A stretch of 64,000 nt of DNA from Heliocidaris erythrogramma (lineage: Eukaryota; Echinodermata; Echinoidea; Camarodonta; Echinometridae), in the NCBI GenBank assembly GCA_025617745.1, contig CM046863.1, positions 59,600,085 through 59,664,084 of the forward strand. Direction: 5' to 3'. The translations under genes and the position numbers were made by a program. Below are positions 3,774 to 39,988 of this stretch, piece by piece. The notes below the pieces were generated by a model. It did no database searches. It saw nothing but the letters and a program-made list of their open reading frames with translations, and had not been told where the DNA came from. The first letter of the stretch is position 1; every line of letters begins with the position of its first letter.

Positions 3774-5368
3774 ATAGCTACAGAGTGAAGATCTCAGAGT
3801 CCTTGACAGTCGAGCGATGTCGTGAAAAACTGGCGAAGAAATACCTCAATTCCTCATGCAAAATCCATATGGCTCCATGGGATCCAAATGACTTTGCTGA
3901 GTTTGAGGACATGCACACGGTTGTCACCATAGTGAAAAAGGACAAACATGGAAAAGACACAAAAGAGAAGGAGACTCTGTCGGGGTCTGTTGCTGAAATA
4001 CTTTCAACGGAAGTAAACGGCAGGCCACCAGAACGAATCCTCATTTCGGCCCCCGCTGGACGCGGGAAGACAACAGCTGTCGCTAAAATGGCTTACGACT
4101 GGGCTAACAGAGTGCAGAAATCACCCCATGAAAACTTGCCTCTGCTATTCGCTGTTAAGCTACGAAAAACCAGCAAGCAGACGTCAATCGCAGAAGCAAT
4201 CAGATCTCAGTTATTGAGTGACATTGCTGATCTAACCCAAGATGGACTACACAGATTTATCAAAGAAAATCAGGACATTTGTCACATCATACTAGACGGG
4301 CTAGATGAGTATGCCGGTATTTCCGCAAACAAAGGATTGGGAAGCAACATTGTCAGTGTGATCAGCTGGGAGGAATATCCAGAATGCAGAGTCCTTGTAA
4401 CAACACGCCCTCACCTAGAGAACTTCTTCAATCAAGGGGAACTTCCAAGGGTGTACACAAAGATGTGGATCGAAGGATTCTCCCGAGAGAGCTCAAGAGA
4501 GTACGTTGACAAATATTTTGCCTCGACTTCGAATCCTTCTAAGGGGCATGGTCTAAAGGATTACCTCGATGGCCAACCCCTGATTAATGAACTTGTTAGG
4601 ACACCTCTGTTTTGTCTCATGGTCTGTCATTTGTGGAATAAGGAACAACTGGACACGGATACCACAACCCAGACAGAACTCCTGGACAAAGTGAATGCAT
4701 TAATGATGCACCATGCCAACGCCCGTTCACAGTCAGGGGCACAGTTCACAACTGGTGAATTAAGCACAATAATTTGTAGCTTAGGGGAGATTGCTCTAGC
4801 TAGTTTACTCGACGATGCTAAAAAGCTAGTCTTCACACCACATGATTTCCGAAGAGTTCCAGCTATCCTTGAAAGTGCATGTGAGCTTGGGATAATATCC
4901 AAGACGACTGTTACTTCAGAACACCTTTCTCAGTCCCATGAGACCACTTCTACTATCATCGAGTTTTATCACAAACTCGCGCAGGAGCACTCAGCTGGAA
5001 AATATCTAGCTGCTGAATGGAAGAAATGCAAGAAGAGATTTTGGCCATGGAAGACTTCTAAGTTAGACACAGTACTGAAGAAGAAAGAAGCAAACATCGA
5101 TGACTATGAGCATCTCATCAGATTCGCTGCTGGCACGGATAGAAACCTCTGCATTAGAATAATGGAGGCTCTTCTTGCCAACGGATACTTGGATGAGAGC
5201 GAGCGATATCGTATTCTCCTTGACTGCTCATCAGAGACCAAGGGTACTGAAGGAAGCGTGTCTTCGTTGGTTCAAAGATGTGTAACTGCACAAAGTATTG
5301 TTCTGAAGTCCCCAACTGTCTACACAGTTGTTGGAATGCAGAATCTTCCACAGCAACTGAAGCTTCAG
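3774..5368 (+). CDS. NLR-like NACHT NTPase exon (large exon of the immune-receptor-like gene)
   Basis: This exon encodes the nucleotide-binding engine of an NLR-type protein, which in this family switches between ADP- and ATP-bound states and oligomerises in the cytosol. Numbering codons from 3776: a pre-NACHT segment with MAPWDPNDF (about 36-44), Walker A APAGRGKTT (92-100), Walker B LDGLDE (about 173-178), sensor TTRPH (209-213), and the conserved winged-helix/helical segment FYHKLAQEHSAGKYL (about 397-411). It is one unbroken 1,595-nt exon. The end is set by the CAG|GTATGT donor at 5368/5369, in phase 0; without that splice the frame runs only to 5413. The next exon (6172) also starts in phase 0. 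No death, CARD or PYD domain is visible in the window, so any effector domain must lie upstream of it or be absent. Confidence 0.9.
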
Positions 5369-6171
5369 GTATGTGGTGTGAAGACTTCCACCTCCCGTCA
5401 CTTAGACAAATAATTAGCATGATATCACATGTAAATTCCTTTAGGGGATTTCAAGTATTAATTTCTCATTTTTTTTACAGCACTGCGATCTACACCAGTG
5501 AAATGAATATACATGTATACGTATTTTAAATCACAAGACAGATATCCGTAGAGAACGTGCAAGAGTCGACATATATATCGATTTTACTTATTTAGCTTTA
5601 GATCCTCCTGTGCCGTTGAGCACATTGGGCAGCAAGCAAAATACTGGGTGAGAGAAAATTAAATGGCACACATTTAACGAATATACTTCGGAATGTACAC
5701 GCGTTAAGGACAGGACTGGATGGGCAATATCCAGATGGGAAACTACATGAAACGTAATGTCTAGAAGGAATGCACACTATCATCACTAGCCGGAATTTGA
5801 CACGTTGACTACTGATTTTTCTAATTCCCGTAGGATTAATACATATAGCGCACACTGTTCCAGTAGCCAATGGGTTAACGTGTATTCTCTGATTTTGGTT
5901 TTCATTACTATTGATAAACCGCGATTAGAACAGGCTGCAAAGAAATATCCTTCCATCAACCTTTAGCGCAGACAATAATCTTTCTATGCTGCTCTCACCT
6001 AACCCCGTTATTTCACAAAGGTTAAACTTGATAAGCACTTTCCTATTATGTTACTTCACTTTATTAAAAATAAAACCCCAGTTAATTCTATTCTGCCGTA
6101 TCTATATCTAAATCAAAACCAAACTGCATAATGTTTGTTATCTCTCATTCTCTATCAACTATTAAACACAG
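5369..6171 (+). other. Intron between NACHT exon and first LRR exon
   Basis: This is 803 nt of AT-rich sequence with no repeat or reading frame that I can support. The donor is GTATGT and the acceptor is the AAACACAG at 6164-6171. Confidence 0.6.
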
Positions 6172-6695
6172 GTTAGAGAAGTTAAATTCGAGGGGTCTAC
6201 TATGACTACAGACGTGACGAGTGGGTTATGGTCCTGTCTCGCATCATTTTCGATGCTTCATACTATTACCATAACCGACTCCTCTCTCAGTTTTCAATCA
6301 TCTCCTCCTAAGCTTTCATCCGTCACAAAGCTGATCGCCACGAAATTGATGTCACAGAGCTACGAAGGCCTGATCTCATCGTTACCTGCCTTGAAAGAGA
6401 TCGATGTCACTATTGATGATGTAGAGAGAGACACAACTCATATTACGGCCTCCAGGCCTATGGGGCACAGCAGGGATGAGCAGCTTGCTGTACATATCAA
6501 GCTACAAGCCTCGTCATCACTTTCAACAGAAGAGAAGACTGAATGGGGAGAGACGAATGCAACGGTGGGTCTTCTGGTCAGCGAACACACCCCAAACCAA
6601 CAATGCCTACGTGTGTCCGGGCTGAAGGGCAGGGATGAGGAAGCCTTGGTTGAACTCTTCGGAAAGTCAACACAACTAACGTCATTGAATTTTGA
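6172..6695 (+). CDS. LRR exon A (first after NACHT; chimeric)
   Basis: A 524-nt exon, phase 0 in and phase 2 out (donor GTAAGT at 6696). It opens VREVKFEGSTMTTDVTSGLW, unlike all other LRR exons, and continues WSCLASFSMLHTITI. From DSSLSFQSSPP onward it is nearly identical to exons B-E of the 3.7 kb array, with scattered changes such as ERDTTHI for ERDTAHI and EHTPNQQ for EQTPNQQ. The pattern of regularly spaced leucines and isoleucines (LHTITI, LKEIDVTI, QLTSLNF) fits LRRs that would form the ligand-sensing C-terminal part. The mix of a unique 5' part and a shared 3' part suggests gene conversion or unequal exchange. Confidence 0.85.
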
Positions 6696-8277
6696 GTAAG
6701 TAAATCTAGCCCTACAGACTATAGCACAAGCGTTGCTGGATACCCCAACATCGGATCGCAACGTCAATCTCGCCGACGCCTATAAAATTTAACAAATCGC
6801 CTAGGTATCGGTACCGCCGATTTTTATCTGACCCAAGCTTTAGTCTGTTTATCCTTTCTTGTCTTGTAAAGTACCTGTGAGTCCCCGTTCTTGTAGCAAT
6901 CTTTGTCTTCGTTCTGTAATGTTGTCATTAACCTGTTCAGTTCCCCTTTCTATAGCTTCCTTTTGTTCCACAAAATATGCAGAAGTTATAGACGTTACAT
7001 ATTTATCTGGAAACCTCGTTGCCCCAAAAATATATGTGGGTTTTCTTTCTCCTCGCTGCCAGAATATCGGAACTTTGAAATCCTCAGGGGAGGGGTGCTG
7101 CAGTAATTGCCGAGAGGGGGGGGGGGGGGCGGCTCCTTTTGCCCGAATATCAACTTTGGAATTTCTAAATGTTTGCGAGTGAGCAATTCTTTATAAAACT
7201 TTTTCTAGAGAAAATGCACAGAAGTTTCATACAGAAGTTACATGATTATCTTGGAATCTCGCTGTCCAAATAATGTGGATGTTTTATCTCCTCGCTGCCC
7301 GACTATGAAATGGTGGTCGTCCGAATATCGGAACTTTGAAAATCCTCGGGGCAGGCGGGCTGCAGGCTGCAGCCATCGCCGAAGATGGGGACGCCTTTTG
7401 CCCGAAAATTAACCCATTGACTACAGGGACCGGGTGGCTTCTGTATTGAGCCTATGAGAGTTAATAAATTGACCAGTCAACAGTAAACTTTCCATTGTTT
7501 TGCGAGCGAAGTCAGCGAACGAAGCGACCGAGCAAAATAGAAGATGGTCAGCTTTTCAATCTTTTTCTTTCTTTCCCTTTTCATTTCCTTCTTTTCTTTC
7601 TGTTTTTGATTTCCTTTGATTTCCCTTCGATTTTCTTTTTTCTTCTCCTTTCTCTTTTCTCTTCCTTTTCCCTTTTCCCACCACTCTTTCTTTTTGCCGA
7701 CAGAGATGGCGCATTTGCCGACAGCAATTTCGAGTGTGGGGGCCCGGGGGGGGGGGGGGGGGGGAGATTAGAAAATATGTTTCTATAAAAAATAGTGTAT
7801 ACATTTGTTGTATCCTGTAAATCCATGTGTGTTGTTTTTTGTGCGTTTTTTCCCTTCTATAACAGACTACACAGATCAATTGCCCTAATTTTTTTTCTTC
7901 AAACACAAATAGTCATTGTTCATCATAATGATGTCCTTATTAATATATTTTCATTGTTATATTTGTTATATTTATCATCATTATCACTATTATCAGGAAG
8001 TAGTAGTCGTAATAGTAATAGTAGTAGTAGTAGTAGTAATATCTTAACATCATGATTATTATTATTACTACCATAGTGGTAGTAGCAGTAGGAGCAGTAG
8101 TATCACTTTTATTTGTTGTAGGCCTATTATTGCTGGTGCTTCTTATAATTAATTCTTATTACCACGGTGCAGATGTAGATTTCGTTTCTTTTTTCTATAT
8201 TGATTGTATATGTTTATTTCCCAATAATTTATCTTATCACATTCTTTCCGTCATTTCTTTTTCAAATATATTTTTAG

Positions 8278-8320
8278 GAGTGAAAGTGGTTCTCTACACT
8301 GCGACATACATGCCGTCCAA
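8278..8320 (+). CDS. Mini exon 1 (43 nt)
   Basis: The acceptor is ATATTTTTAG (ending 8277) and the donor GTAAGTAG (8321). The first base completes the split codon left by exon A (GA+G), then it encodes SESGSLHCDIHAVQ and ends in phase 0. It thus bridges the phase-2 end of exon A and the phase-0 start of exon B. Confidence 0.8.
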
Positions 8321-8973
8321 GTAAGTAGACTGATATGTGCACATGCCTTTAAAATAACGGAGAATGGAAATTACCCCAGAATAGCATTGTCTGTCTTAAC
8401 TCTTTCATTGCCGATACTATGTGACAGATGGACTTGTCATTTTCAGTCACCAAATGCTCGACCACAGGAACGATATATATGGTGGTCAATGTATATCAAC
8501 ATTTTGAACATAAATCAAGCATTCTAAATATATGATTATAATTATATACTACCATAGAAATTTTCAGAGAAAATTGCAGATTTTTAAAAAGATATTAGAT
8601 ATTTCAACTTTAAACAATAGTAAACAAATGAGAAACCAAAAATAATTGGCAAAAAAGAAACTTAAATGTAATTTTCAATAATTCTTATGCATTAAATTGG
8701 GTAAAGTAATAATGTTTGGTATCATATTATATTTTGTGAAATAATAGATGGTTAATGAAGTGCAGACATTTGAAAAGTAAGCGTTGAATTTTTGAAGAGA
8801 ACTACACCCCTTGGCACAGTAAGAGTTAAACAATTAGACCATTTACCCGATTTTCAATGAAGTGATAGTTTGGACTAGGCTTTTAGACTTTTCCACTCGT
8901 TAACTACATGTAGTTAAATTATTTTATCCCCATACATGTATGTGAGAAGTGGTTTGTTTTCATTTCGTTACAG

Positions 8974-9497
8974 AATGCTATGCTTGAGATAAAGCATTGC
9001 CAGCTCTCTATTGAGATGACCGAAAACTTGTGGTCCTACCTCAGATCCGTCGCTGCTCTAAAACATCTCTTCATCTCAGACTCCTCTCTCAGTTTTCAAT
9101 CATCTCCTCCTAAGCTTTCATCCGTCACAAAGCTGATCGCCACGAAATTGATGTCACAGAGCTACGAAGGCCTGATCTCATCGTTACCTGCCTTGAAAGA
9201 GATCGATGTCACTATTGATGATGTAGAGAGAGACACAGCTCATATTACGGCCTCCAGGCCTATGGAGCACAGCAGGGATGAGCATCTTGCTGTACATATC
9301 AAGCTACAAGCCTCGTCATCACTTTCAACAAGAGAGAAGACTGAATCGGGAGCGACGATTGCAACGGTGGGTCTTCTGGTCAGGGAACAAACCCCAAACC
9401 AACAATGCCTACGTGTGTGCGGGCTGAAGGGCAGGGATGAGGAAGCCTTGGTTGAACTCTTCGGCAAGTCAACACAACTATCTTCATTGAATTTGGA
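8974..9497 (+). CDS. LRR exon B
   Basis: A 524-nt exon with a TTTCGTTACAG acceptor and a GTAAGT donor at 9498. It begins NAMLEIKHCQLSIEM and ends STQLSSLNLE. Candidate LRR segments are LEIKHCQLS, LKHLFISDSSLSF, LKEIDVTIDDV, CLRVCGLKG and LSSLNLE. The phase is 0 to 2. The protein sequence is the same as exons C and D. Confidence 0.9.
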
Positions 9498-9748
9498 GTA
9501 AGTAAATCTAGCCCTACAGACTATACACTCTGAGTTTTTAGACAATAATTAGTTCTTATGAAGGTCAGGGTCAAGGATATGCTGATATATATAGGAACCA
9601 AAGCATTCTCATTTAGGTCTGTTTTTTTGTGAAACAATGTCTTGTTCATGGAGCATTATTATAGTTTTGGATCTACGTTAATTTGTTCAGGTTCAATTTG
9701 TTCAATATGTTCAATTTCAACCCGACCTTTTCTAATCGTTCATTTTTT

Positions 9749-9779
9749 AGGTGGGCTGTACTTCAAGTACAGACCACCT
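9749..9779. repeat. Terminal hairpin of an interspersed element (copy in unit 1)
   Basis: A 31-nt imperfect palindrome: AGGTGG, G, CTGTACT, loop TCA, AGTACAG, A, CCACCT. It follows TTTTTT and precedes TTATT-rich sequence, then ACCCACTTTTTTGTGTCC. The same order (AG plus palindrome, A/T-rich tract, CCCACTTTCTTG, later GACGTCATCNAGGCGCC) is found at 40824 with a different palindrome. Copies also lie at 13469-13499 and 17189-17219 in units 2 and 3. Confidence 0.75.
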
Positions 9780-11425: not shown

Positions 11426-11474
<49 letters not shown>

Positions 11475-11995: not shown

Positions 11996-12038
11996 GAGTG
12001 AAAGTGGTTCTCTACACTGCGACATACATGCCGTCCAA
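11996..12038 (+). CDS. Mini exon 2 (43 nt)
   Basis: It has the same sequence and splice signals as mini exon 1 (acceptor TTTTTAG, donor GTAAGTAG at 12039) and encodes SESGSLHCDIHAVQ between exons B and C. Confidence 0.8.
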
Positions 12039-12693: not shown

Positions 12694-13217
12694 AATGCTA
12701 TGCTTGAGATAAAGCATTGCCAGCTCTCTATTGAGATGACCGAAAACTTGTGGTCCTACCTCAGATCCGTCGCTGCTCTAAAACATCTCTTCATCTCAGA
12801 CTCCTCTCTCAGTTTTCAATCATCTCCTCCTAAGCTTTCATCCGTCACAAAGCTGATCGCCACGAAATTGATGTCACAGAGCTACGAAGGCCTGATCTCA
12901 TCGTTACCTGCCTTGAAAGAGATCGATGTCACTATTGATGATGTAGAGAGAGACACAGCTCATATTACGGCCTCCAGGCCTATGGAGCACAGCAGGGATG
13001 AGCATCTTGCTGTACATATCAAGCTACAAGCCTCGTCATCACTTTCAACAAGAGAGAAGACTGAATCGGGAGCGACGATTGCAACGGTGGGTCTTCTGGT
13101 CAGGGAACAAACCCCAAACCAACAATGCCTACGTGTGTGCGGGCTGAAGGGCAGGGATGAGGAAGCCTTGGTTGAACTCTTCGGCAAGTCAACACAACTA
13201 TCTTCATTGAATTTGGA
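12694..13217 (+). CDS. LRR exon C
   Basis: A 524-nt exon that looks base-for-base identical to exon B, with the same acceptor and donor (GTAAGT at 13218). Its start lies exactly 3,720 bp after that of exon B. The identity suggests very recent duplication or ongoing gene conversion. An assembly duplication cannot be excluded from sequence alone, although the flanking intron differences argue against a simple copy error. Confidence 0.88.
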
Positions 13218-15715: not shown

Positions 15716-15758
15716 GAGTGAAAGTGGTTCTCTACACTGCGACATACATGCCGTCCAA
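15716..15758 (+). CDS. Mini exon 3 (43 nt)
   Basis: Identical to mini exons 1 and 2, with donor GTAAGTAG at 15759; it joins exons C and D. Confidence 0.8.
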
Positions 15759-16413: not shown

Positions 16414-16937
16414 AATGCTATGCTTGAGATAAAGCATTGCCAGCTCTCTATTGAGATGACCGAAAACTTGTGGTCCTACCTCAGATCCGTCGCTGCTCTA
16501 AAACATCTCTTCATCTCAGACTCCTCTCTCAGTTTTCAATCATCTCCTCCTAAGCTTTCATCCGTCACAAAGCTGATCGCCACGAAATTGATGTCACAGA
16601 GCTACGAAGGCCTGATCTCATCGTTACCTGCCTTGAAAGAGATCGATGTCACTATTGATGATGTAGAGAGAGACACAGCTCATATTACGGCCTCCAGGCC
16701 TATGGAGCACAGCAGGGATGAGCATCTTGCTGTACATATCAAGCTACAAGCCTCGTCATCACTTTCAACAAGAGAGAAGACTGAATCGGGAGCGACGATT
16801 GCAACGGTGGGTCTTCTGGTCAGGGAACAAACCCCAAACCAACAATGCCTACGTGTGTGCGGGCTGAAGGGCAGGGATGAGGAAGCCTTGGTTGAACTCT
16901 TCGGCAAGTCAACACAACTATCTTCATTGAATTTGGA
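16414..16937 (+). CDS. LRR exon D
   Basis: A 524-nt exon that appears identical to exons B and C, with donor GTAAGT at 16938. It begins exactly 3,720 bp after exon C. Confidence 0.88.
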
Positions 16938-19343: not shown

Positions 19344-19386
19344 GAGTGAAAGTGGTTCTCTACACTGCGACATACATGCCGTCCAA
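19344..19386 (+). CDS. Mini exon 4 (43 nt)
   Basis: The same 43-nt sequence as mini exons 1-3, with donor GTAAGTAG at 19387; it joins exons D and E. Confidence 0.8.
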
Positions 19387-20042: not shown

Positions 20043-20566
20043 AATGCTATGCTTGAGATAAAGCATTGCCAGCTCTCTATTGAGATGACCGAAAACTTGT
20101 GGTCCTACCTCAGATCCGTCGCTGCTCTAAAACATCTCTTCATCTCAGACTCCTCTCTCAGTTTTCAATCATCTCCTCCTAAGCTTTCATCCGTCACAAA
20201 GCTGATCGCCACGAAATTGATGTCACAAAGCTACGAAGGCCTGATCTCATCGTTACCTGCCTTGAAAGAGATCGATGTCACTATTGATGATGTAGAGAGA
20301 GACACAGCTCATATTACGGCCTCCAGGCCTATGGAGCACAGCAGGGATGAGCATCTTGCTGTACATATCAAGCTACAAGCCTCGTCATCACTTTCAACAG
20401 AAGAGAAGACTGAATCGGGAGCGACGATTGCAACGGTGGGTCTTCTGGTCAGGGAACAAACCCCAAACCAACAATGCCTACGTGTGTGCGGGCTGAAGGG
20501 CAGGGATGAGGAAGCCTTGGTTGAACTCTTCGGCAAGTCAACACAACTATCTTCATTGAATTTGGA
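20043..20566 (+). CDS. LRR exon E
   Basis: A 524-nt exon that differs from B-D at one visible residue (STEEKTES for STREKTES, shared with exon A) and by a silent change (ATGTCACAAAGC). The donor GTAAGT is at 20567. It is the last member of the first array. Confidence 0.88.
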
Positions 20567-20685: not shown

Positions 20686-20945
20686 GTCTGTTTTTTGGAG
20701 CTCACGCGCATAAGCCTTAAAGTACCTGAATCACTCCCTAGGACTAGGCCTAGGCCTAGGCCATCAGAGAAGAAAAATGTATCAAGCGTACCAAGAGACA
20801 CGACAAGAGGACTGGGTCTCTTGAATGGAACATTCGACAGTGACGAGGTGATATTGTCCTGGGTAATTTCCGGACCCGAGGAGATATTGATTGATCTCGT
20901 CGAGCCTTCAACGCGTTTGATATCATCTTGTCTGTATATAGAACA
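20686..20945 (+). pseudogene. Half LRR exon fused to the end of the 3.7 kb array
   Basis: From GAGCTCACGCGC at 20698 the sequence matches the 3' half of exons I and J: ELTRISLKV, SEKKNV, RGLGLL, DEVILS, LIDLVEPSTRLISS, ending LYIEQ with a GTGAGT donor at 20946 in phase 2. The 5' half and its acceptor are absent. An AGGCCT repeat has expanded inside it, adding RTRPRPRP. An array-derived CATTTAG at 20679-20685 would give a frame-preserving phase-0 start at 20686 (VCFLELTR), in frame only if exon E is skipped after mini exon 4. It is more likely a non-functional fragment. Confidence 0.75.
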
Positions 20946-23841: not shown

Positions 23842-23881
23842 GTTTTCTGGGTCAATGCCCTCGGACAGACGCGTATCAAAT
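23842..23881 (+). CDS. Mini exon 5 (40 nt, FSGS type)
   Basis: The acceptor is TTCCTACAG and the donor GTAAGTAG at 23882. One leading base is followed by FSGSMPSDRRVSN, phase 2 in and 0 out. It belongs to the type that follows I/J-like exons, which fits the half exon upstream. It joins exon E (or the half exon) to exon F. Confidence 0.78.
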
Positions 23882-24883: not shown

Positions 24884-25380
24884 AATTCTAGGCTTGAGAT
24901 AAAGCACTGCCAGCTATCTAATGACATGATCAACAAGTTGTGGTCCTGCCTCCGATCCGTCGCCTCTCTTTACCATCTCTCCATCTCAGACTCCTCTCTG
25001 AGTTTCCCATCATCTCCTCCTATGCTTCCAGCGGTCACAAAGGTCATAGCCAGGGGGGTGACGTCACAGAGCTCCGAAAGCCTGCTCTCATCGCTCCCAG
25101 GCTTGAAAGACATCGATATCACTATCGATGATGCAGAGACGGACATATCTCAGATCACGGCCTCCAGGCCTATGCGTCAGACCGGGGATCACGTCTCATC
25201 CTCATTTTTGACAGAAGAGATGACTGGCTCGATAGAGACGATTGCAGGGCTGGGTCTTCTGATCAGCGAACAAACACCAAATCAACAATGGCTACGTATC
25301 TCAGGGCAGAAGGGCAGAGATGAGGAAGCCGTGATTGACCTCTTTGTCAAGTCGACACACCTAAAGTCACTGGAGTTGGG
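24884..25380 (+). CDS. LRR exon F
   Basis: A 497-nt exon, phase 0 to 2, with acceptor TTTCATTGCAG and donor GTGAGT at 25381. It starts NSRLEIKHCQLSNDMINKLW and ends STHLKSLELG. It shares the DSSLSFPSSPP block with the others but has its own central segment (RPMRQTGDH, EEMTGSIETIAGLGLL). It is about nine codons shorter than exons A-E. Confidence 0.88.
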
Positions 25381-27268
25381 GTGAGTACAGTGGCGGATTT
25401 AGGGGGGTGGGGCAGGCACATCGATCGGCCCGTGCCCCCCTCCATTTGGAAGGAAATTGCATAGTGCCCCCTTTTTTAATGAAAACACTCTTTTTTCTTT
25501 CTTTTTTTGTTGTTTGTCAGAGAATTATGGAGGGAAACTGGACCCCCTACCCCACCCCCCACTGAGCGAATTTGGAGATCTGGCGGGGAACAAAAAATGT
25601 CGCCTTTTGCCCGAATATTAACTTTCCAGGGTTTTCGCCAGTGACAAAAAATTGGCTCGTTTTGACTTCTTTTTCATTCCTTTAGTTTTCCTTTCCATCT
25701 TGTCTTTCTATAATTGTTTTCCTTTCCCTCCCCTTTTCTTTAAACTTGTCTTATTTATTCTCCTTTCTCTTTTCTCCATTTTCTTTTGCTTATCTATTTC
25801 TCACTCCATATTTCCCCTCTTTGTTTTGTGTTTTTGTATCTTTAGCCGACAAAGGTTCTTTCTTTTTGCTTTTGTTTTTGTTTTTGTTTTTTGTTTTGTT
25901 TTGGGGGGGGTGGGCTGGGGGAGGGGTTGTGACCAGTGGCGTATCTAGGAATTCTGCCGCCCGGGGCAAACTATCAAATCTGCACGCCCGCCCCCACCCC
26001 CATGCCCAAACTCAAATTAATGAGCGTTTTTAAGTTAGAAATGATAGCACTACGTGAAAATGAGTTTGATGCACATAACCCGGGGTTGTTAGCCCAAATT
26101 TAATGAGTTATTGTATAAGCGAGGGAGCAACGAGACCGAGCGGAAGATTTTTTTTCTTTTCCTTTTCACCCCTCAACTTGAATTTTCTTATGTATTTTAC
26201 CCTTACAAAGAAAAAAATCCAAGGGAATACAGCAACCTTGCAATATATGAAATTTTGAACATTCCTATTTTATGGGAGCAAAGTGAATGAAAACCCTGAA
26301 GAAATATATTTGAGGAAGGCAATTTCAAGTCAAATTTATGATCTCTTTCGAATGTTCTATGTTTTGAAAATGCTTTTTATGCACATTATATCCCATCTGG
26401 GGTGCAAAATTTAACAAGCTCCTGCCTTATAGGGGGGGGGGGGGGGAGGGCAAAGGAACTAGAGTAAATTAATGGTTAACACTTTAAAAGCGGCATGGGG
26501 GGGAATAGATCTTGAACATAATTATGCGAGGGAGCAAAGTGACCGAGCTTTATGAAAAATTTCGCATTTCAAACCCTATAAAACAACATTTCTTACGCAT
26601 TTTGTCCTTGACTGGGGCGCAAATAGCGCTTAAAGACCATAACATTTCTTGTACTTCTACCCCTTTATTTTCTCTCTTTTGTGTTTCTTGCGCCCCTTTC
26701 AAGTGCCGTCCGTTGCACGTCCCCCACCCTCCCTTTAGATACACCACTGCTTGTGATACCCCATCCCCTCTAGCGACATCCCTGTTGAGAATATAAATAT
26801 TTGGAGTTTTCCATTTAGTGTAACAAATTCAAAGGCAAATTGTAGTAGTAAAATTCTAATAGACGACTGTATCTCTTATCAATTGTTAATAACCCATACC
26901 CATGTTATTTTTCTTATTACAGACGGTATGTTCATTATAATATCCTATTAATATTATTGCTATAATTGTTGATTTTTATCATCATTATTACTTACCTGGC
27001 GTAGGGGTCGCATTGAGGATGCACCCCTAAGTCGAGACTTGCCATTGCACTACGGCTTGATGAATCTTGCGATTCCCCCAAACGTGGGAATTATCATTAT
27101 TACTTATTATCATCATTATTATTACTTTTATTGCTGTTTTGCTTTTATTGCTGTTACTATTTTATTACCACCGTACAGACGTAGATTTCATTTATTTTCT
27201 TTATTGATTTCATTTCTTACAATCGTATTGAACCACATTTCCTCATTTCTTTGTCATATATCATGTAG
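25381..27268 (+). other. Intron F-G with nested repeats
   Basis: It starts with a CAGTGGCGGATTTAGG-bearing repeat at 25389, also found directly after exons G and H and at 31518. A pyrimidine tract, a hAT-like MITE and a GGCGTAGGGGTCGCATTG block (about 26998-27080) follow. No gene is seen. Confidence 0.6.
25934..26749 (+). mobile_element. hAT-like MITE, copy 1
   Basis: The left end is CAGTGGCGTATCTAGG and the right end the inverted ...AGATACACCACTG. It is flanked by GTTGTGAC (25926-25933) and CTTGTGAT (26750-26757), a degraded 8-bp target duplication as expected for hAT elements. It has no transposase. The interior has GCGAGGGAGCAA motifs and a poly-G run. Confidence 0.8.
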
Positions 27269-27311
27269 GAGTGAATGTGGTTCTCTAAACTACGACAGCT
27301 GCGCCGTTCAG
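27269..27311 (+). CDS. Mini exon 6 (43 nt)
   Basis: The acceptor is ATCATGTAG and the donor GTAAGTAG at 27312. It encodes SECGSLNYDSCAVQ after the split codon, phase 2 to 0, between exons F and G. Confidence 0.78.
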
Positions 27312-27566: not shown

Positions 27567-28063
27567 AATTCTAGGCTTGAGATAAAGCACTGCCAGCTAT
27601 CTAATGACATGATCAACAAGTTGTGGTCCTGCCTCCGATCCGTCGCCTCTCTTTACCATCTCTCCATCTCAGACTCCTCTCTGAGTTTCCCATCATCTCC
27701 TCCTATGCTTCCAGCCGTCACAAAGGTCATAGCCAGGGGGGTGACGTCACAGAGCTCCGAAAGCCTGCTCTCATCGCTCCCAGGCTTGAAAGACATCGAT
27801 ATCACTATCCATGATGCAGAGACGGACATATCTCAGATCACGGCCTCCAGGCCTATGCGTCAGACCGGGGATCACGCCTCATCCTCAATTTTGACAGAAG
27901 AGATGACTGGCTCGATAGAGACGATTGCAGGACTGGGTCTTCTGATCAGCGAACAAACACCAAATCAACAATGGCTACGTATCTCCGGGCTGAAGGGCCG
28001 AGACGAGGAAGCCGTGGTTGACATCTTTGTCAAGTCGACACACCTAAAGTCACTGGAGTTGGG
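27567..28063 (+). CDS. LRR exon G
   Basis: A 497-nt close copy of exon F (changes include TIHDAE for TIDDAE and VVDIFVKS). The acceptor is TTTCATTGCAG. The donor at 28064 is GTGGGT, where F and H have GTGAGT, and may splice less efficiently; read-through reaches a stop at 28083. Confidence 0.86.
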
Positions 28064-29857
28064 GTGGGTACAGTGGCGGATTTAGGGGGGGGGGGGGGGT
28101 GGGGCACATCCCCCCCCCCCCCCCCATTTGGAAGGAAATAGCATAGTGCCCTTTTTTAAATGAAAAACCTTTTTTTTCTTTCTTTCTTTTTGTTGTTTGT
28201 CAGAGAATTATGGAGGGAAACTGGACCCCCACCCCACCCCCACTGAGCGAATTTTGGAGATCTGGCGGGGGACAAAAAATGTCTCCTTTTGCCCGAATAT
28301 TAACTTTCCAGGGTTTTGTCGCCAGTGACAAAAATTGGCTAGTTTTGCCTTCTTTTTCTTTCCTGTAGTTTTCCTTTCAATCTTGTCTCTCTAAATTTGT
28401 TTTCCTTTCCGTCCCCTTTTCTTTTAGCTTTTTCCTTTCTCCTTTTTCTTTTCTCCGTTTTCTTTTTTCTATTTCTCCCTCCATATTTCTCCTCTTTGTT
28501 TTTTTTTCTGTTTTTTTTTGGGCCGACAGAGGTTGCACATTTACCCACATTTTCTTTCTTTTCTTTTCGGGTTCTTTTTTTTTTTTTTGGGGGGGGGGGG
28601 GGCGGGGGGAGGGGTTCTGGATAGTGGCGTATCTAGGAATTCTGGCGCCCGGGGCAAATCAAATCTGCGCCCCCCCCCCCCCCCCCCCCCCATGCCCAAA
28701 CTCAAATTAACGAGCGTTTTTAAGTTAGAAATGATGGCACTACGTAAAAATGAGTTTGATGCACATAACCCGGGGTTGTTAGCCCAAATATAATGAGTTA
28801 GTGTATAAGCGAGGGAGCAACGAGACCGAGCGGCAGAATTTTGTTTTTCCTTTTCACCCCTCAACTTGAAATTTCTTATTTAATTTTCCCTTACAAAGAA
28901 AATAATCCGAGGGAATACAGCGACCTACCAATATATGTTTGTTTGTTTGTTTTTTTTTTTTTTTTTTTGGGGGGGGGGATTTTGAACGTTCCTATTTTAT
29001 GGGCGCAAAATAAAAAACCCTGAAGAAATATATTTGAGGAAGGCAATTTCAAGTCAAATTATTGATCCCTTTCGATTGTTCTATATTTTGAAGATGTTTT
29101 TTATGCACTTATATCCCATCTGGGGCGCAAAATTTAACAAGCTCCTGCATTACATATGTAGGGGGGGGGGGGGGCAAAGCAACTAGAGTAAATTAATGGT
29201 TAACACTTTAAAAGCGCCATTGGGGGAGGGGGCGCGAAATAGATCTTGAACATAATTATGCGAGGGAGCAAGCGACCGAGCTTTATGAAAATTTCGCATT
29301 TCAAACCCTATAAAACACCATTTCTTACGCATTTTGTCCTTGACTTGGGCGCAAATAACGCTCAAACACCATAACATTTCTTGTATTTCTCCCCCTTTAT
29401 TTTCTCTCTTTTGCGTTTCTTGCGCCCCTTTGAAGTGCCGCCCGGGGCACGTTCCCCCTTTGCCCCCCCCCCCCCTCCCCAATAAATACGCCACTGGTTG
29501 TGACACCCAATCCCCCTCTAGCGACGTCCCTGTTGAGAATATAAATATTTGGAGTTTTCCATTTAGTGTAACAAATGCAAAGGCAAATTGTAGTAGTTAA
29601 ATTCTGATAGACGACTGTATCTCTTATCAATTGTTAATAACCCATACCAATTTATTGTCTTCTATCAGAACAGACGATATGTTCATTATAATATCCTATT
29701 TATATTATTGCTATAATTATTGATTTTTATCATTATTATTTTATACTTACCTGGCGTAGAGGTCGCATTGAGGATGCACCCCAAGGTCGAGGCTTGCCAT
29801 TGCACTACGGCTTGATGAATCTTGCAATTCCCCCAAACGTTATTATCATTATTACTA

Positions 29858-30017: not shown

Positions 30018-30060
30018 GAGTGAATGTGGTTCTCTAAACTACGACAGAAACGCTGTTCAG
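30018..30060 (+). CDS. Mini exon 7 (43 nt)
   Basis: The acceptor is ATCTTGTAG and the donor GTAAGTAG at 30061. It encodes SECGSLNYDRNAVQ and joins exons G and H. Confidence 0.78.
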
Positions 30061-30280: not shown

Positions 30281-30777
30281 AATGCGAGGCTTGAGATAAA
30301 GCACTGCCAACTATCTACTGAGATGATCGACAAGTTGTGGTCCTGCCTCCGATCCGTCGCCTCTCTTTACCATCTCTCCATCTCAGACTCCTCTCTGAGT
30401 TTCCCATCATCTCCTCCTATGCTTCCAGCGGTCACAAAGGTCATAGCCAGGGGGGTGACGTCACAGAGCTCCGAAAGTCTGCTCTCATCGCTCCCAGGCT
30501 TGAAAGACATCGATATCACTATCGATGATGCAGAGACGGACATATCTCAGATCACGGCCTCCAGGCCTATGCGTCAGACCGGGGATCACGCCTCATCCTC
30601 AATTTTGACAGAAGAGATGACTGGCTCGATAGAGACGATTGCAGGACTGGGTCTTCTGATCAGCGAACAAACACCAAATCAACAATGGCTACGTATCTCC
30701 GGGCTGAAGGGCAGAGACGAGGAAGCCGTGGTTGACCTCTTTGTCAAGTCGACACACCTAAAGTCACTGGAGTTGGG
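30281..30777 (+). CDS. LRR exon H
   Basis: A 497-nt exon with acceptor TTTCATTGCAG and donor GTGAGT at 30778. It begins NARLEIKHCQLSTEMIDKLW, mixing an exon B-like start (NAxLEIKHCQLS) with the exon F body. The rest is nearly the same as exon G. Confidence 0.88.
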
Positions 30778-30881
30778 GTGAGTAAAGTGGCGGATATAGG
30801 GGGGGGGGGGGGGTGGGGCACATCCGGCCCATGCCCCCCCCCCCCCCCCCTTGGTAGGAAATAGCATAGTGCCCCATTTTT

Positions 30882-31480: not shown

Positions 31481-31481
31481 A

Positions 31482-31512
31482 GTCGACACACCTAAAGTCA
31501 TTGGAGTTGGGG
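31482..31512 (+). pseudogene. Relic of an LRR exon 3' end
   Basis: The stretch AGTCGACACACCTAAAGTCA through GGAGTTGGG plus its GTGAGTACAG donor copies the end of exon H (30747-30777). The following CAGTGGCGG-type flank is duplicated as well. It marks a local duplication around the hairpin element and has no acceptor, so it is not expected to be spliced. Confidence 0.8.
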
Positions 31513-33277: not shown

Positions 33278-33320
33278 GAGTGAAGGTGGATCTCTAAACT
33301 ACGACAGCTGCGCCGTTCAG
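33278..33320 (+). CDS. Mini exon 8 (43 nt)
   Basis: The acceptor is ATCATGTAG and the donor GTAAGTAG at 33321. It encodes SEGGSLNYDSCAVQ and joins exons H and I. Confidence 0.78.
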
Positions 33321-33585
33321 GTAAGTAGACTTGCAATACTGATACGTCCACGTAGCTCTAAAATATACCAACAAATGAAATTCTCTGCCTGATGGGGAGT
33401 TTACAACAAAGTGGTGGCACTTTCTGTAAAAAAAATGAAATAAATTATTTGCTTGATTATCACTGAAGCGAGATTTTGGACTTTCTTTTCAATATACTTT
33501 CATTCCCTACATATATTGTCATGCATTGTAGTAGTATCCCGAAGCGTGTGAATGTGACAAAGTGTCTCTTTGCATTTCATTGCAG

Positions 33586-34091
33586 AATTCTAAGCTTGAG
33601 ATAAAGTACTGCCATCTATCTACAGAGATGAACGAAAAGTTGTGGTCCTGCCTCAGATCCGTCGCTTCTCTAAAACATCTCTCCATCTCAGACTCCTCTC
33701 TCAGTTTCCCGTCATCTCCTCCTGAGCTTCCATCCATCACAAAGCTGATAGCCGAGAGAGTGACGTCACAAAGCTACGAAGGTCTGTTCTCTTCTTTACC
33801 TGGCGTGCGAGAGATCGATATCACTATCGATGATGTAGGGAAAGAAGACGTATCTCAGATCCAGACTGGTCTTCGTCGACGTCTGACGGGACAGGAGCTC
33901 ACGCACATCAGGCTTAAAGCACCCGATACACTCCGGTCAGAGAAGAAGAATGTAGAGACGATGAGAGGACTGGGTCTTCTGATCGGGGACGAGGTGATAT
34001 TGTCAGGGGTAGTATCCGGACCTGAGGAGAAATTAATTGATCTCGTGGAGCCTTTGACACGTTTGATATCATCTACTCTGTATATAGAACA
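33586..34091 (+). CDS. LRR exon I
   Basis: A 506-nt exon, phase 0 to 2, with acceptor TTTCATTGCAG and donor GTAAGT at 34092. It starts NSKLEIKYCHLSTEM and ends LISSTLYIEQ. The 3' half is distinctive: GLRRRLTGQELTHIRLKAPD, SEKKNVETMRGLGLLIGDEV, SGPEEKLIDLVEP. The N-terminal part resembles exon H, the C-terminal part exon J. Confidence 0.88.
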
Positions 34092-35320
34092 GTAAGTAAT
34101 GACTCCTTTTTTCAAAAAATATTTTATTACTTCCATTTTCAAAATAACATCTTTAAAAATCAAGGTAAATCTGGTAAAAAAAGGATAGACATCTATACCC
34201 ATATGCCAGAAATATACTATGCAACCTTATCTGATTACATTTATTGATACAATTAAATTAACTATTAACAATGAGATAAACATAACATTTTATCAGCACT
34301 ATCACGCGCATGGTTTTATTGAATAGAAGATTATATTTCAAACATTTTTTTAAAAGAGTGAACCCCCCCCCCCCCCCAAAGAAGAAGAAGAAAAAAAAAA
34401 CAGAAAAAGAAGAAAAGGAAAATCGATTCAAAATTTCTCGCATCAATCGCGGGTTTCCCCAATTATCAGCAGGCCTTTGTGTGTGTTCTTGTTCATGTTT
34501 TTAAGCCATACATTTGAAATGAAATTGGCATCATAATTACTTTTTTGGTCCGGTTAATGTGTAGACTTTTAAAAAACAAAATATCCACCAGAAATCCATA
34601 AACTTGGTCACAAGACTCAATGATTATCAAAGATGATCATTGGGTGTAATTATGTTATGACAATAGGTATAACATATCCTACCTTTTTATCACCAAAAGA
34701 GGTATAAAAGAACTCCCAGGAAAACAAAAAACATACACACAAAACACCCTTTAACAATTTTGGAAAAAATAAGAGATGATTCTGTTCAAGTTATAAGAAG
34801 AAAGAAATTAGCTCAGATTTCAATTATATTACAATGGGCATGTTGTGAAATTCTGAAGTATGACATTGTAGAGCCTGGCCTTATTTTGAAAACTATGGGT
34901 CAGAGAACTTTGTCATGTTTGTTCTCATTTATTGCATGCTTGTCAATTACATTTTTCACCTGCCAGTCACCCTCCATACCATCTTCATCCAAATCCCCTT
35001 TTCATAAGTTTTATCTTCTTCTTCTTCTTTTCCTTCTTTTTTCTTCTTCTGCTTATTCTCCTTCTTCTTTTTCTTCTTCTTCTTCTTCTCTTCTTCCTCT
35101 TCTTATCCTAATTATTTGTTATCATTATTATTACCATCAACATTGTTATTATGTCATTGCTAATTTTTATCATTGATTAAATTCTTAGTAGTATAATAAT
35201 TAGCATAGTCCTTAACACGATGTTATTATAACTGTTACCAGCAGCACTTTCACTCTCGAAGCCGAAATATTTGATTAACATCTGTCTTGGTTTTCCTCAT
35301 CTTTCTCCTAAATTCTATAG
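34092..35320 (+). other. Intron I-J
   Basis: AT-rich, with a poly-C/poly-A stretch (34362-34400), a CTT microsatellite (about 35010-35105) and no supported gene. It is homologous to the introns after exon J and after the half exon at 20945. Confidence 0.6.
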
Positions 35321-35360
35321 GTTTTCTGGATCGCTGAAATCGGACAGACGGGTAACAAAT
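35321..35360 (+). CDS. Mini exon 9 (40 nt, FSGS type)
   Basis: The acceptor is AATTCTATAG and the donor GTAAGTAG at 35361. After the split CAG codon it encodes FSGSLKSDRRVTN; it joins exons I and J. Confidence 0.78.
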
Positions 35361-35869
35361 GTAAGTAGACTGGTAGGCCTCATTAAATGTTCAACAAAAG
35401 GAATTTATACATTCTGCTTCATAGAAAATACACCAAAATAAATGATATTTCTTCCTTATTTATTGCATTGTGCAAATGGCCTACATGTATTTCGTACTAC
35501 AATAAAATATTTTTCAAAAAGATTTGTATTTTTGTAGAAAATTGTAAATGGCCAAGAAGTTAATTAAATAATTGGTTTCTTGTAATGAAACTATTTATTG
35601 GAACAGAAGTCGAGCAAAATCACATCTTATTTCATGCCATTTCTTGTCAGCTTGTTTACACTTTGTTTCTCCAAACCACGGATATACTGCGATTTAGTTC
35701 TTTTATAGGCCTATATCCTTCTTCTTGTCATTAAGATTCATGAGAAGAACCCGAAACTCGTAAAGCGTATGTTTTGTCCATGATAGTGAGAGGAAGAAAT
35801 TGTATGCAACTCCCTAAATTGAATATGATGCAAAATTGACGCATTCATTTTCCTTGTATTCTATTACAG

Positions 35870-36375
35870 ATCCCTATGTTAACAATTGAGGACTGCCATC
35901 TATCTGCTGAGATGACCATCAGGTTGTGGTCCTGCCTCAGATCCGTCGCTTCTCTAAAACATCTCTCCATCTCAGACTCCTCTCTCAGTTTCCCGTCATC
36001 TCCTCCTGAGCTTCCATCCGTCACAAAGCTGATAGCTGAGAGAGTGACGTCACAAAGCTACGAAGGTCTGTTCTCTTCTTTACCTGGCGTGCGAGAGATC
36101 GATATCACTATCGATGATGTAGGGAAAGAAGACATATCTCAGATCCAGACTGGTCTTCGTCGACGTCTGACGGGACAGGAGCTCACACGCATCAAGCTTA
36201 AAGCACCCGATACACTCCGGTCAGAGAAGAAGAATGTAGAGACGATGAGAGGACTTGGTCTTCTGATCGGGGACGAGGTGGTATTGTCAGGGGTAGTATC
36301 CGGACCGGAGGAGAAATTAATTGATCTCGTGGAGCCTTCGACACGTTTGATATCATCTAGTTTATATAAGGAACA
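35870..36375 (+). CDS. LRR exon J
   Basis: A 506-nt exon with acceptor TTCTATTACAG and donor GTAAGT at 36376. It starts IPMLTIEDCHLSAEMTIRLW. From SVASLKHLSISDSS on it is almost identical to exon I, which points to exchange between the two. It ends SSLYKEQ. Confidence 0.88.
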
Positions 36376-39030
36376 GTAAGTAATTACTACATCTTTTGTT
36401 TTAAGATTCTTCTAATTACTTCCATTTTCAAAATAACATTTTTACAAATAATCAAGTTAAGATAGCAAATCATATATGCAAACTTATATAATTACATTTA
36501 TTGGTACAATGATTATCAAACCAACTAATATGAGTCAAACATTTCATAAGCACGATCATGCACGTGGTATTATTATTGAAAGAAAATTTACATTTAAAAC
36601 ATCTTTCTAAAATAATGAACAAAGAAAACAGAATGTAGAAGAAAAGGAAAATCTAGTAAAAATCTATCGCGGGTTTCCTTTTTATTAGCATGCCTTTGTG
36701 TGTGTCCTGGTTCATGTTTTTTAATCCATACATTTGACATGTATGCACGCATGTATGTATGTGGGCACACGCACACACAAAAAATTCTCTGACAAGCCCT
36801 CCCAAAAAAGGTCCTCAGCATTTTAGTGTGTCTCCTTTTCACTCCAAAATTCTCTGACAAGCAAAAAAAAAAGGTCCTCAGTATTTTTGTGTCTCTCCGG
36901 ACGAGCAAAAACAAAAAAGGCCCCCCCCCCTGGATCCGCCACTGAGTAAGGTATAAAATCTTAGATTTTTTCCAAGTCAAAATTCTTAAAAGGATATCCG
37001 TATTCTAATGTAATGATAAGTAAGTATTCTACCCTATATTTTAGCATGCTATACTAGGGAGGATGCTTCAATGGTCCGCTGGGCTGCTGACACCGTTAGC
37101 TATGACTATGATAAAAACATACGAATACACCTTCCATGAATACACGTTTCGCAGGTTTTAGACTTTAGTTGACCTATTTATAGATCTATGCCTTAGCTGT
37201 GCATGTGCGCGCCGCGAAGCGCAGTCGCGTCGACAGTCGGCATACGCGCATTGTGGAATTTTCTACACAAAATAATGATATGATATATGATAGAGAGCCG
37301 CGCCTAGGCGCTAGCACCGGTACGGTCGATCCGACATAAGTACATACCGACATAATTATAACACTGACTGCCATATCAAGAGGTGAGATCAAAATGTTTT
37401 TAATCGTTCGGGCTTCGTGGCAGCGTCCCGGGGCTAGACTGAGACCTGGGGGGCGTTTCATGAAAGGACTTGTCAGATATTTTATCCGACAAATTTGCTC
37501 TCAGCCAATCAGATGCAAGGATTTCAGTAGCTTATAACAGTTGTCGGATAAAATATCTGACAGCTTCCTTTCATGAAACGCTCCCCTGAGACTGAGTAGA
37601 CCTGTAACACTAACAGAGTTAGGCCTACAGTAGATCTAACGCCAACTTTTATAGATCTAAAGTTAGGCCTAATACTATAGTTAAAGTAATAATAGACGAC
37701 TGGGCTTGCAGGCCGCCGATGTACTTAGTGCTAGCCCTAACTTAGTCGGGCGATCAACGGGACTAGCTAGCTTCGTGGAGCCTAGGCCTAGCCGAGGCCT
37801 GCCTAAAGGCTACGTCTAAAATAGCAATTTTAGGTATAGCCTACAATGTAGGCTCTTCTAAATTGTGAAAAGGAGAAGTACAGTGGCCTAGAGTAGACTC
37901 TAGACGGTGGATATAGGCTAGGTCCAGGAGAGGGGGTCTTAACTGCTCCATAGCGCTAGCCTAGTTAGGCCTAGGGCTAGGCTAACTAAAACTAGTGCAG
38001 TCGGTCAAGCCCAAAATTATGAGCATAATCATTTCTGTTCGGTTCTCCCATATGTTTTGTGTATAATTTTCTTACGGTACGATTTTCATTTTAAAACGTA
38101 AATTGCATAGGCCTAGGCAAATTTTGGCTGCAGTCGTGTCACTCGACTCGGCTATCTGACTAGACATAGTGATGTCACTGAATCAAAGAAATTTGTTTAA
38201 CCTGTCGGTGGTTAACTTTTTTAGATTATTTCTTTAACAGATTCTTGGAATTTTTTCTTAAACTTAAGAAAAATGTCTTAGAAGTTTATTGAATACGGCC
38301 CCTGAAATCCATAAACTTTGAAGAGTTACAGAAAATATCACAAGAAGAGTACTATAAAAACAATCGCAAAAAAAAAATGAACAATTTTGGAGAAACTCAG
38401 TCTAAGAGATTATTCTGTTCAAGTTTTTAATAGAAGAAATGAGCTTACATTTTCATTGGCATTATATTTACAAAGTCAAAGCAATGGGCATGATATGCAG
38501 TCGTGAAATAGGATATCATTTCCCATACACTTTGTCATTGTGTCAGAAAACTTGGTCATGTAAATGCTCATTTATTGGATGCTTGTCCATTACATTGTTC
38601 ACCTGTCAATCACCCTCCATACCATCTCCATCCAAACCACCTGTTCATTGTACATTTCATCCCATTGTCATGTTCCATCCATACACTCAATGTTCAGTCA
38701 ATGTTCTATGTATACACTCAATGTACATTGTATTCAAGTTATACACACTACGTGTCATGGTCATTGTCAAACACATTGCATAATGCTATCACTCTCTCAC
38801 ATACATACACACTTCCATGTCTCCTCATGACTTCGATTTTAATTCGTATGCTTTACTAATAAGTTTTATCTTTTTCTTCTTCTCCTATTATTATTATTAT
38901 TATAATTATAATTATTGTCATTAACGTGATTCTTATTATAATTGTTACCATCTGTACTATCACTCTAGAAGTTGAAATATTTTATTACCGACTGTCTTGT
39001 TTTTCTTCATCTTTCTCCTAAATGCTATAG
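36376..39030 (+). other. Intron J-K with CpG-rich and AGGCCT-rich stretches
   Basis: It contains a CAGTGGCGGATCCAGG-type repeat end on the minus strand (terminus at 36944), a short CpG-rich stretch (about 37195-37345, with GCGCGCCGCGAAGCGC), a palindromic MITE, and an AGGCCT-rich region (about 37620-38120). The last part matches the introns after exon I and the half exon. No protein-like frame is visible. I cannot tell whether the CpG-rich stretch has promoter activity. Confidence 0.55.
37448..37586. mobile_element. Palindromic MITE (GGGGCGTTTCATGAAAGGA ends)
   Basis: The ends GGGGGGCGTTTCATGAAAGGA and TCCTTTCATGAAACGCTCCCC are inverted, and the arms continue with TGTCAGATATTTTATCCGACAA and its complement. 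The element is about 139 bp with a short unique centre. It has no coding capacity. Confidence 0.75.
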
Positions 39031-39070
39031 GTTTTCTGGATCGCTGAACTCGGACAGACGCGTATCAAAT
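39031..39070 (+). CDS. Mini exon 10 (40 nt, FSGS type)
   Basis: The acceptor is AATGCTATAG and the donor GTAAGTAG at 39071. It encodes FSGSLNSDRRVSN and joins exons J and K. Confidence 0.78.
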
Positions 39071-39470
39071 GTAAGTAGGCCTGATAGGCCTCATTGTTTA
39101 GAAATGTTCAACAAAAGCAATTTATACATTCCACCTTATGGAAGTTATAGCAAAATAAATTATATTTCTTCCTTATTTATTGCATTGTGCAAATGGCCTA
39201 ATTCATACTACAAATTAAATGGCAATTTCCAAAAGATGTCAGTAAAAAAATTGTGAATGTCGTTTAGACCCCCCCCAAAAAAAACAAAAAAAAATAATAA
39301 TAATAATAATAATAATTCATATAAAATAAATTTTAAAAAATAATACGATCTAGTAGTAGTTGTAAAGTGTGTGTTTTGTCCATAATAGTGAAAGCTAGAG
39401 ATTGTATGTAACTCCCTAGATTGAATATGATCTAAAATTGTCACATTTATTTTCTTGTATTTCATGACAG

Positions 39471-39988
39471 ATCCCTAGTTTAACGATTGATGACTGCCAA
39501 CTATCTGCTGAGATGACCATCAGGTTGTGGTCCTGCCTCAGATCCTTCACCTCACTGTCCAAGCTTACTATCTCACACTCCTCTCTCAGTTTCTCTCCAT
39601 CTCCTCCTGAGCTTCCATCCGTCACAGAGCTGATAGCCAAGAGAGTGACGTCACAAAGCTACGAAGGTCTGCTCTCATCGATACCTGGCTTGAAAGAGAT
39701 CGATATCACTATCGATGATGCAGAGAGAGACATATCTCAGATCACGGCTTGTCTTCGTCTGACCGGGGGACAGCAGCTCACACACATCAGCCTTATAGCA
39801 CCGTACTCACTCCCATCAGAGAAGAAGAATGTATCGAGAGAGACGATGAGAGGACTGGGTCTTCTGATCAGAGAACAAACCAACAACCTACAGCGGCTGT
39901 ATGTGTGGAGGGTGAAGTGCACAGACGAGGAAGACTTGGTTTACCTCGTCGAGTGCTGTAGACATGTGAAGACGATGAGATACGTAGA
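39471..39988 (+). CDS. LRR exon K
   Basis: A 518-nt exon with acceptor TTTCATGACAG and donor GTAAGT at 39989, phase 0 to 2. It starts IPSLTIDDCQLSAEMTIRLW. It is the most diverged cassette, for example SFTSLSKLTISHSSLSFSPSP, and ends with NLQRLYVWRVKCTDEEDLVYL and HVKTMRYVE. It combines an I/J-like N-terminal half with a C-terminal layout closer to exons A-H (REQTNNLQRL versus REQTPNQQCL). The phase-2 end means at least one more coding exon must follow. Confidence 0.87.

Follow-up and report, generated by a model that had tools for sequence, protein, structure and literature searches.

A frame-neutral array of LRR-like exon cassettes as the probable sensor of an NLR gene in the sea urchin Heliocidaris erythrogramma

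Organisation of the cassette array

The window, a stretch of 64,000 nucleotides of the sea urchin Heliocidaris erythrogramma (contig CM046863.1; G000:C11:59600085-59664084, in an assembly of 1.06 Gb comprising 26 contigs), contains a predicted animal NLR gene, which is intact-looking. Its single NACHT exon is followed by 11 long exons similar to leucine-rich repeats (LRRs), which alternate with 10 mini exons. It is probable, at about three chances in four, that this frame-neutral array of LRR-like cassettes forms the C-terminal sensor of the NLR and that the sensor is rebuilt by cassette turnover. Four related loci are designated paralogues A2, B, C and D below.

The exons described by the first-pass annotation of this DNA, namely the NACHT exon, the long exons entered in phase 0 and left in phase 2, and the mini exons entered in phase 2 and left in phase 0, were all located, with AG acceptors and GT donors at 11/11 long and 10/10 mini exons, the donor of L7 (gtgggt) being weak. 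The long exons measure 497-524 nt, each length leaving a remainder of 2 nt, and the mini exons 40 or 43 nt, leaving a remainder of 1 nt. The NACHT exon has the acceptor TTTCAG/AT, preceded by a phase 1 intron, and the phase 0 donor CAG/GTATGT; in paralogue B, where the acceptor is kept, the DNA just upstream of it contains indels that are not multiples of three. Joined from base 3776, the exons give 7,655 nt, or 2,551 codons, with 0 stops: the open joined frame reported earlier stands, and its length, put then at about 2,570 codons, is corrected. Every one of the 22 exons in the window gene is open; broken exons occur in each of A2, B, C and D. The features of the array are as follows.

3774-5368, +, NACHT exon (Pfam NACHT, 63.9 bits; acceptor kept in paralogue B; at least 81 genome matches including itself)
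6172-6695, +, L1, NACHT-proximal long exon, 524 nt (first ~105 nt unlike other cassettes, remainder L2-like)
8278-8320, +, mini exon, 43 nt
8974-9497, +, L2, 524 nt
11996-12038, +, mini exon, 43 nt
12694-13217, +, L3, 524 nt (identical to L2 across 524 nt)
15716-15758, +, mini exon, 43 nt
16414-16937, +, L4, 524 nt (identical to L2 and L3)
19344-19386, +, mini exon, 43 nt
20043-20566, +, L5, 524 nt (3 differences from L2-L4)
20697-20945, +, dead cassette after the L5 intron, L9'-type second half without the acceptor side (20697-20943 is 97.6% identical to paralogue D cassette 2)
23842-23881, +, mini exon, 40 nt
24884-25380, +, L6, 497 nt
27269-27311, +, mini exon, 43 nt
27567-28063, +, L7, 497 nt (weak donor gtgggt)
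30018-30060, +, mini exon, 43 nt
30281-30777, +, L8, 497 nt
31481-31511, +, dead cassette, last 31 nt of an L6-L8-type exon
33278-33320, +, mini exon, 43 nt
33586-34091, +, L9, 506 nt (mosaic: 5' end L8-like, remainder L10-like)
35321-35360, +, mini exon, 40 nt
35870-36375, +, L10, 506 nt (mosaic: 5' end L11-like, remainder L9-like)
39031-39070, +, mini exon, 40 nt
39471-39988, +, L11, 518 nt, last cassette type of the family (in-frame TAA overlapping the donor)
43208-43238, +, possible terminal coding exon, weak (10 codons and a stop; start of a block conserved with paralogues B and C)

One cassette consists of a mini exon of 40 or 43 nt and a long exon of ~500 nt and encodes about 187 amino acids (aa). 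The exons do not preserve the frame singly, as those of NLRP3 do; the mini and long pair alone is neutral (0 in, 0 out), and whole cassettes can therefore be gained or lost, which bears out the earlier statement that any number of such pairs keeps the frame. In-register crossing-over within a long exon would likewise preserve it. Patterns derived from the window's own mini exons gave 10 matches on the + strand and 0 on the - strand; none of 20 Markov-random windows had any. Stop-free runs of at least 165 codons, at least one of which is a transposase frame, numbered 15 on the + strand, 0 on the - strand and 0 or 1 per random window.

If a long exon is read through, a stop is met in most cases, because the donor GTRAGT is then read in phase 2, so that unspliced read-through would end the protein there, L7 with its gtgggt donor excepted. 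In L11 the TAA that overlaps the donor is conserved in paralogues B and C, and it may be the true end of the gene. The short exon at 43208-43238 is a weak candidate for an alternative end and lies at the edge of a block 94-96% conserved in the alignment with B and C. This block spans ~400 nt (43160-43559), and the window holds a second, partial copy of it at 85% identity (44911-45204).

Turnover of cassettes inside the gene

Between 6.7 and 20.7 kb the window consists of tandem units of ~3.7 kb, which are 97.8-99.2% alike when aligned by BLAST. The introns of units 2-4 differ by 0.5-0.9% (20/3,130 substitutions between units 2 and 3, 15/3,061 between 3 and 4, and 27/3,040 between 2 and 4); their long exons carry 0/524 substitutions, and a partial fifth unit shows 3/524 exon differences. 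Were the exons to change at the rates of the introns, 0 changes in 567 exon bases would have a probability of 0.03, 0.06 and 0.006 in the three non-independent pairs, and the lower divergence of the L2-L4 exons compared with their introns is suggestive only. The L2-L5 exons are 99-100% identical across 174 aa, which exceeds the level of high internal conservation used for fungal proteins (>85% across at least 100 aa; PMC4986451).

Older layers, 78-93% alike, surround L6-L9, L9-L10 and L10-L11, and the L6-L8 exons differ by 6-8 nonsynonymous changes per pair. Beyond its distinct first ~105 nt, L1 is 93-100% like L2. The maximum chi-square splits were 27:5 to 4:139 for L9, 27:6 to 9:119 for L10 and 17:11 to 10:118 for L1, each reached in 0/2,000 shuffles, among five triplets picked after the mosaic pattern had been seen. 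These splits support the reading of L1, L9 and L10 as mosaics. The duplication of long exons within the gene with the frame kept, by which the first-pass annotation supposed the sensor to expand, is supported by the 3.7-kb units, the mosaic exons and the remnants. The unequal crossing-over proposed there likewise appears to have left its marks in the near-identical units, the mosaics and the two dead cassettes left in introns.

By the 5' splice sites of L6, L7 and L8, a CAGTGGCGGAT-like repeat begins ~7 nt into the intron (25381-25400, 28064-28085 and 30778-30800). It was probably duplicated along with the cassette. The repeat presumably resembles hAT element ends.

The gene family across the genome

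With itself counted, the NACHT exon is matched at least 81 times in the genome (346 candidates, 81 of them scored), and L3-, L10-, L11- and L1-like exons have at least 150-151 matches each. Partial mini-exon patterns with up to 2 mismatches gave 87 and 179 genome matches, part of the 179 places being listed, against 0 and 0 in reversed controls. The contrast drawn earlier between expansion as whole genes and expansion inside the gene thus holds in its intragenic half and fails as an alternative, there being at least 81 related NACHT exons in the same genome. No further NACHT exon was met between the long exons of the window: in the stretch searched, the next NACHT match lies at C11:59,693,321, beyond the window end.

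The same plan of NACHT exon, L1 and alternating mini and long exons was found in paralogues A2 (59.70-59.74 Mb), B (58.57-58.60 Mb) and D (53.53-53.58 Mb). Paralogue C (58.67-58.71 Mb) was read at 58.67-58.70 Mb, its NACHT exon and L1 being taken from match lists. A recognised mini exon precedes 26/27 later long exons (9/10 in A2, 9/9 in B, 5/5 in C and 3/3 in D), the sole one without it being that of A2 at 59,720,584. Among the matches listed, counted by eye, L1 was matched from its first residue in 69 rows, and L11 was matched over nearly its whole length at no less than 81% identity in 66 rows. The recurrence of these two types is consistent with each gene having one fixed cassette at the start of its array and one at the end.

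Among the matches listed, 39 NACHT exons lie on C11, and they are followed by 11 long exons in the window gene and by at least 0 to 9 in the others. These counts are lower bounds biased to types resembling L3 and L10, except that the count is complete for the window gene, from which the queries were derived; for paralogue B the count is 9, and 10 long exons are present in the fetched stretch. Paralogue A2 has 11 cassettes (one row, the second half of a split exon, is omitted from the typed exon list) and is missing from this count because neither of its NACHT matches was among the 81 scored. These matches are a NACHT exon in four pieces and a further partial match at 59,693,321. The four pieces (C11:59698333-59699913) are, from 5' to 3', 65, 69, 81 and 96% identical to the window's exon, a mosaic-like pattern.

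The NACHT exon of paralogue D encodes a protein 100% identical to that of the window (0 nonsynonymous and 2 synonymous changes), and four cassettes follow within the 54 kb read: L1, L9-type, L10-type and a frameshifted L11. The cassette array of D has a 31-kb gap that holds two stretches 97% identical to 60.4-62.1 kb of the window. A third 100% NACHT exon (C11:53,700,978) is accompanied by at least one long and at least one mini exon.

Divergence and constraint

Between the window gene and paralogue B, the NACHT exons have a synonymous divergence (dS) of 0.33 and a ratio of nonsynonymous to synonymous divergence (dN/dS) of 0.32, and the cassettes have dS of 0.058 (L1), 0.068 (L2), 0.025 (L6), 0.13 (L9) and 0.11 (L10). 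Between the window gene and paralogue D, the NACHT exons have dS of 0.006, and L10 and the third cassette of D (D_c3), perhaps not its counterpart, have dS of 0.11. The disagreement of NACHT and cassette divergences indicates that these parts were exchanged or replaced separately between genes. It looks as if either cassettes or NACHT exons were exchanged. The separate histories of cassettes and NACHT exons are a point that the first-pass annotation had missed.

The mini exons are better conserved than their flanks, with a mean pairwise identity of 0.86 for those of 43 nt (16/23 listed) and 0.91 for those of 40 nt (10/10 listed). Identity is 1.00 and 0.97, respectively, in the first 8 donor bases, 0.50-0.80 in the nearer flanks and 0.38-0.62 in the intron more than 20 nt away. 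The pairs of L6, L7 and L8 have dN/dS of 0.38-0.42, and constraint on the NACHT exon and on L6-L8 is clear. Diversifying selection was considered for L11 against C_c5 (21 nonsynonymous and 3 synonymous changes), L1 against D_c1 (12 and 2) and A2_c6 against A2_c7 (8 and 0). It was rejected, as the pairs had been chosen post hoc from 19 comparisons and the first two, compared with an expected ratio of 3:1, gave P = 0.12 and 0.28.

Encoded protein

The score of the NACHT exon against PF05729 (Pfam NACHT) is well above the cut-off of 26.7, and the best PDB matches of the exon are NLRP3 chains (E 8.5e-7). The Pfam scan of this exon listed no Fisna, no search having been aimed at Fisna or B30.2 in particular. 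Pfam LRR_4 was found in 1/11 long exons (E 0.2). A profile of 11 long-exon sequences matched ribonuclease inhibitor (RI), a protein with RI-type LRRs, in PDB at E 5.5e-5, in five weak places along the inhibitor, and its lower-ranked matches include unrelated proteins; a deeper profile of 28 sequences gave E 2.5e-4 and did not extend the LRR match. The previous reading of the long exons as LRRs is supported for their first ~37 residues, the only part for which an LRR identity seems firm. By a count made by eye, a long and a mini exon together may be read as ~7 LRR-like units of ~27 residues.

Upstream of the NACHT exon, the DNA conserved with paralogue B (2382-2704, 2947-3056, 3669-3779 and a piece ~14 kb before the window) yielded no callable exon. 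When aligned with B, the piece before the window and 3640-3800 both contain frame-breaking indels and look non-coding. The open reading frame (ORF) at 2755-3069 has no Pfam match at E 0.01. Among 137 Death-domain matches in the genome (150/338 candidates scored), 0 are located at C11 53-60 Mb; the genome scan covered Death and not CARD, DED or PYD. Many of these Death matches are clustered, on contigs C2, C6, C10, C11, C21 and others, and several share the region C21 8.0-8.8 Mb with two NACHT exons of the window-gene family.

Proposed mechanism and its alternatives

In the proposed mechanism, turnover would be driven by unequal crossing-over and by gene conversion, acting both inside an array and from one array to another. 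The ends would be fixed, with L1 beside the NACHT exon and L11 last, and the middle would vary. The whole array would be spliced into a single protein with a long LRR solenoid, and variation in the number and type of cassettes would change ligand recognition across the germline repertoire. A wider version is possible and is put forward tentatively: a genome-wide pool of frame-neutral LRR cassettes may circulate among at least 81 NACHT genes by crossing-over or conversion, the sensors being rebuilt in the germline independently of the signalling module and between two fixed ends, with individuals differing in cassette number at this locus.

Several points weigh against the array being one such sensor. 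The joining of the exons is a prediction from the genomic sequence. Pfam LRR_14 was found in 2/11 long exons (best E 0.0021), its match to L9 scores 17.2 bits, under the cut-off of 40, and the RI profile match is confined to positions 2-39, with no stretch significant singly. The AlphaFold2 model of L3 from 11 sequences, with alternating strands and helices, is too poor at a predicted local distance difference test score (pLDDT) of 38; ~77 continuous LRRs would be exceptional, and no N-terminal effector domain came to light. Constraint is weak in most cassette pairs of the window, whose dN/dS is 0.5-0.9. Exchange between genes is made less certain by the closeness of L1 to D_c1 (dS 0.016) and by the doubtful pairing of L10 with D_c3, and the mosaics by the other two split triplets (L10 against L2 and L11, 321/2,000 shuffles; L11 against L10 and L8, 27/2,000). 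The near-identical units could also conceal an assembly error in copy number.

The most serious rival is that the cassettes are alternatives for splicing, one or a few pairs being chosen per transcript as in DSCAM or NLRP3. It fits the frame neutrality of the pairs, and LRR exon skipping is documented in the accessible text on NLRP3 (PMC6642158) and on brown-algal ROCOs (PMC11378527). Yet a mini and a long exon would have to be skipped jointly, which is presumably harder than skipping one symmetric exon, and a choice among the identical L2, L3 and L4 would alter nothing; alternative splicing of this kind is considered rather unlikely. Decaying duplication, in which the first few cassettes are used and the others are unexpressed spares whose number is without consequence for the protein, would account for the frequency of dead cassettes (two in the window, and frameshifted or stop-bearing exons in all four paralogues), for the in-frame stops created by most donors when unspliced, for the lack of added diversity in L2-L4 and for the weak constraint on most pairs. 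It agrees poorly with the 22/22 open exons of the window gene, with mini exons and splice sites better conserved across genes than their flanks, with dN/dS near 0.4 in the L6-L8 pairs and with the recurrence of the distinct L11 type over nearly the whole exon in the 66 rows counted by eye. It is judged clearly improbable. An assembly artefact in the number of 3.7-kb units, for example from collapsed or falsely duplicated haplotypes, might be suspected from units 2-4, which differ by 0.5-0.9% in introns and by 0 in exons. However, a haplotype duplication is expected to repeat the entire locus and not one internal tandem unit, the units carry their own differences, L6-L11 are clearly diverged, and other genes have multi-cassette arrays too, so that such an error has very little to recommend it.

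Other elements in the window

A Tc1/mariner-like transposase ORF lies at 60728-61522 on the + strand (Pfam HTH_Tnp_Tc3_2, E 4e-16). Pieces resembling a retrotransposon without long terminal repeats (non-LTR) occupy 53981-57468 on the - strand, with RVT_1 at E 1.4e-11; short separate frames give weak matches to RNase H and endonuclease. A telomere-like TTAGGG array (57899-58027; 6-nt period, 21 copies, 82% matches) is situated inside the chromosome. An Rfam search at gathering thresholds gave nothing in the window.

Comparison with known systems

Repeat exons that are frame-neutral or shuffled are already known from NLRP3, from zebrafish NLRs, from Prunus TNLs and from brown-algal ROCOs; fungal NLRs have shuffled repeats. 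Like the predicted product of the window gene, in which the LRRs are putative, NLRP3 is a NACHT protein with RI-type LRRs, whose LRR exons keep the frame on addition or skipping; each measures 171 bp, encodes two LRRs and preserves the frame singly (PMC6642158). Unlike in NLRP3, the unit of the window gene consists of two asymmetric exons, some units are near-identical, and their number varies between paralogues. The zebrafish NLR-B30.2 genes resemble the window family in forming a large family with a large NACHT exon, a variable LRR number, a fixed last LRR and exon shuffling between members. They carry 0-6 or >20 LRRs in single exons, the last LRR being fixed in groups 1, 2a and 3, and the accessible text describes one LRR per exon and no two-exon cassette (PMC4852459).

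The fungal het-d, het-e and hnwd genes share with the window gene the NACHT domain and near-identical sensor repeats, and for fungal NLRs a change of repeat number by unequal crossing-over and exchange between paralogues have been proposed (PMC4986451, PMC12222747, PMC2873952). Their repeats are WD40, ANK or TPR and not LRR, with no two-exon cassette in the portions available (PMC4986451, PMC12222747); in the window family, the variation in repeat number observed is that between paralogues of one assembly. In the Prunus Ma gene, as in the window gene, repeated exons were duplicated or lost within the gene, after the NBS-LRR part; it is a plant TNL with five post-LRR exons, and its accessible description contains no mini exons (PMC6141779). 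The brown-algal LRR-ROCO genes also shuffle in-phase LRR exons in candidate immune receptors. Their exons are of 72 bp with a single LRR, in phase 2 and alternatively spliced, and the proteins possess a ROC-COR GTPase in place of NACHT (PMC11378527). Among sea urchins, 203 NLRs of Strongylocentrotus purpuratus are quoted in PMC8913654, a large animal expansion like the window family, and the part of that paper at hand describes no cassette array. No recognisable description of a two-exon cassette was met in the literature searched, by title and start of abstract, most subscription journals lying outside the search.

The window gene would offer a concrete animal NLR case in which the sensor evolves by cassette turnover, on a clock separate from that of the NACHT domain and with an anatomy showing how the frame is protected. 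Should individuals differ in their number of cassettes, it would represent a germline route to receptor diversity in animals without antibodies, resembling the shuffling of fungal NLR repeats. A looser parallel to the window array is provided by the LRR receptors of lampreys, which have fixed ends and a variable middle.

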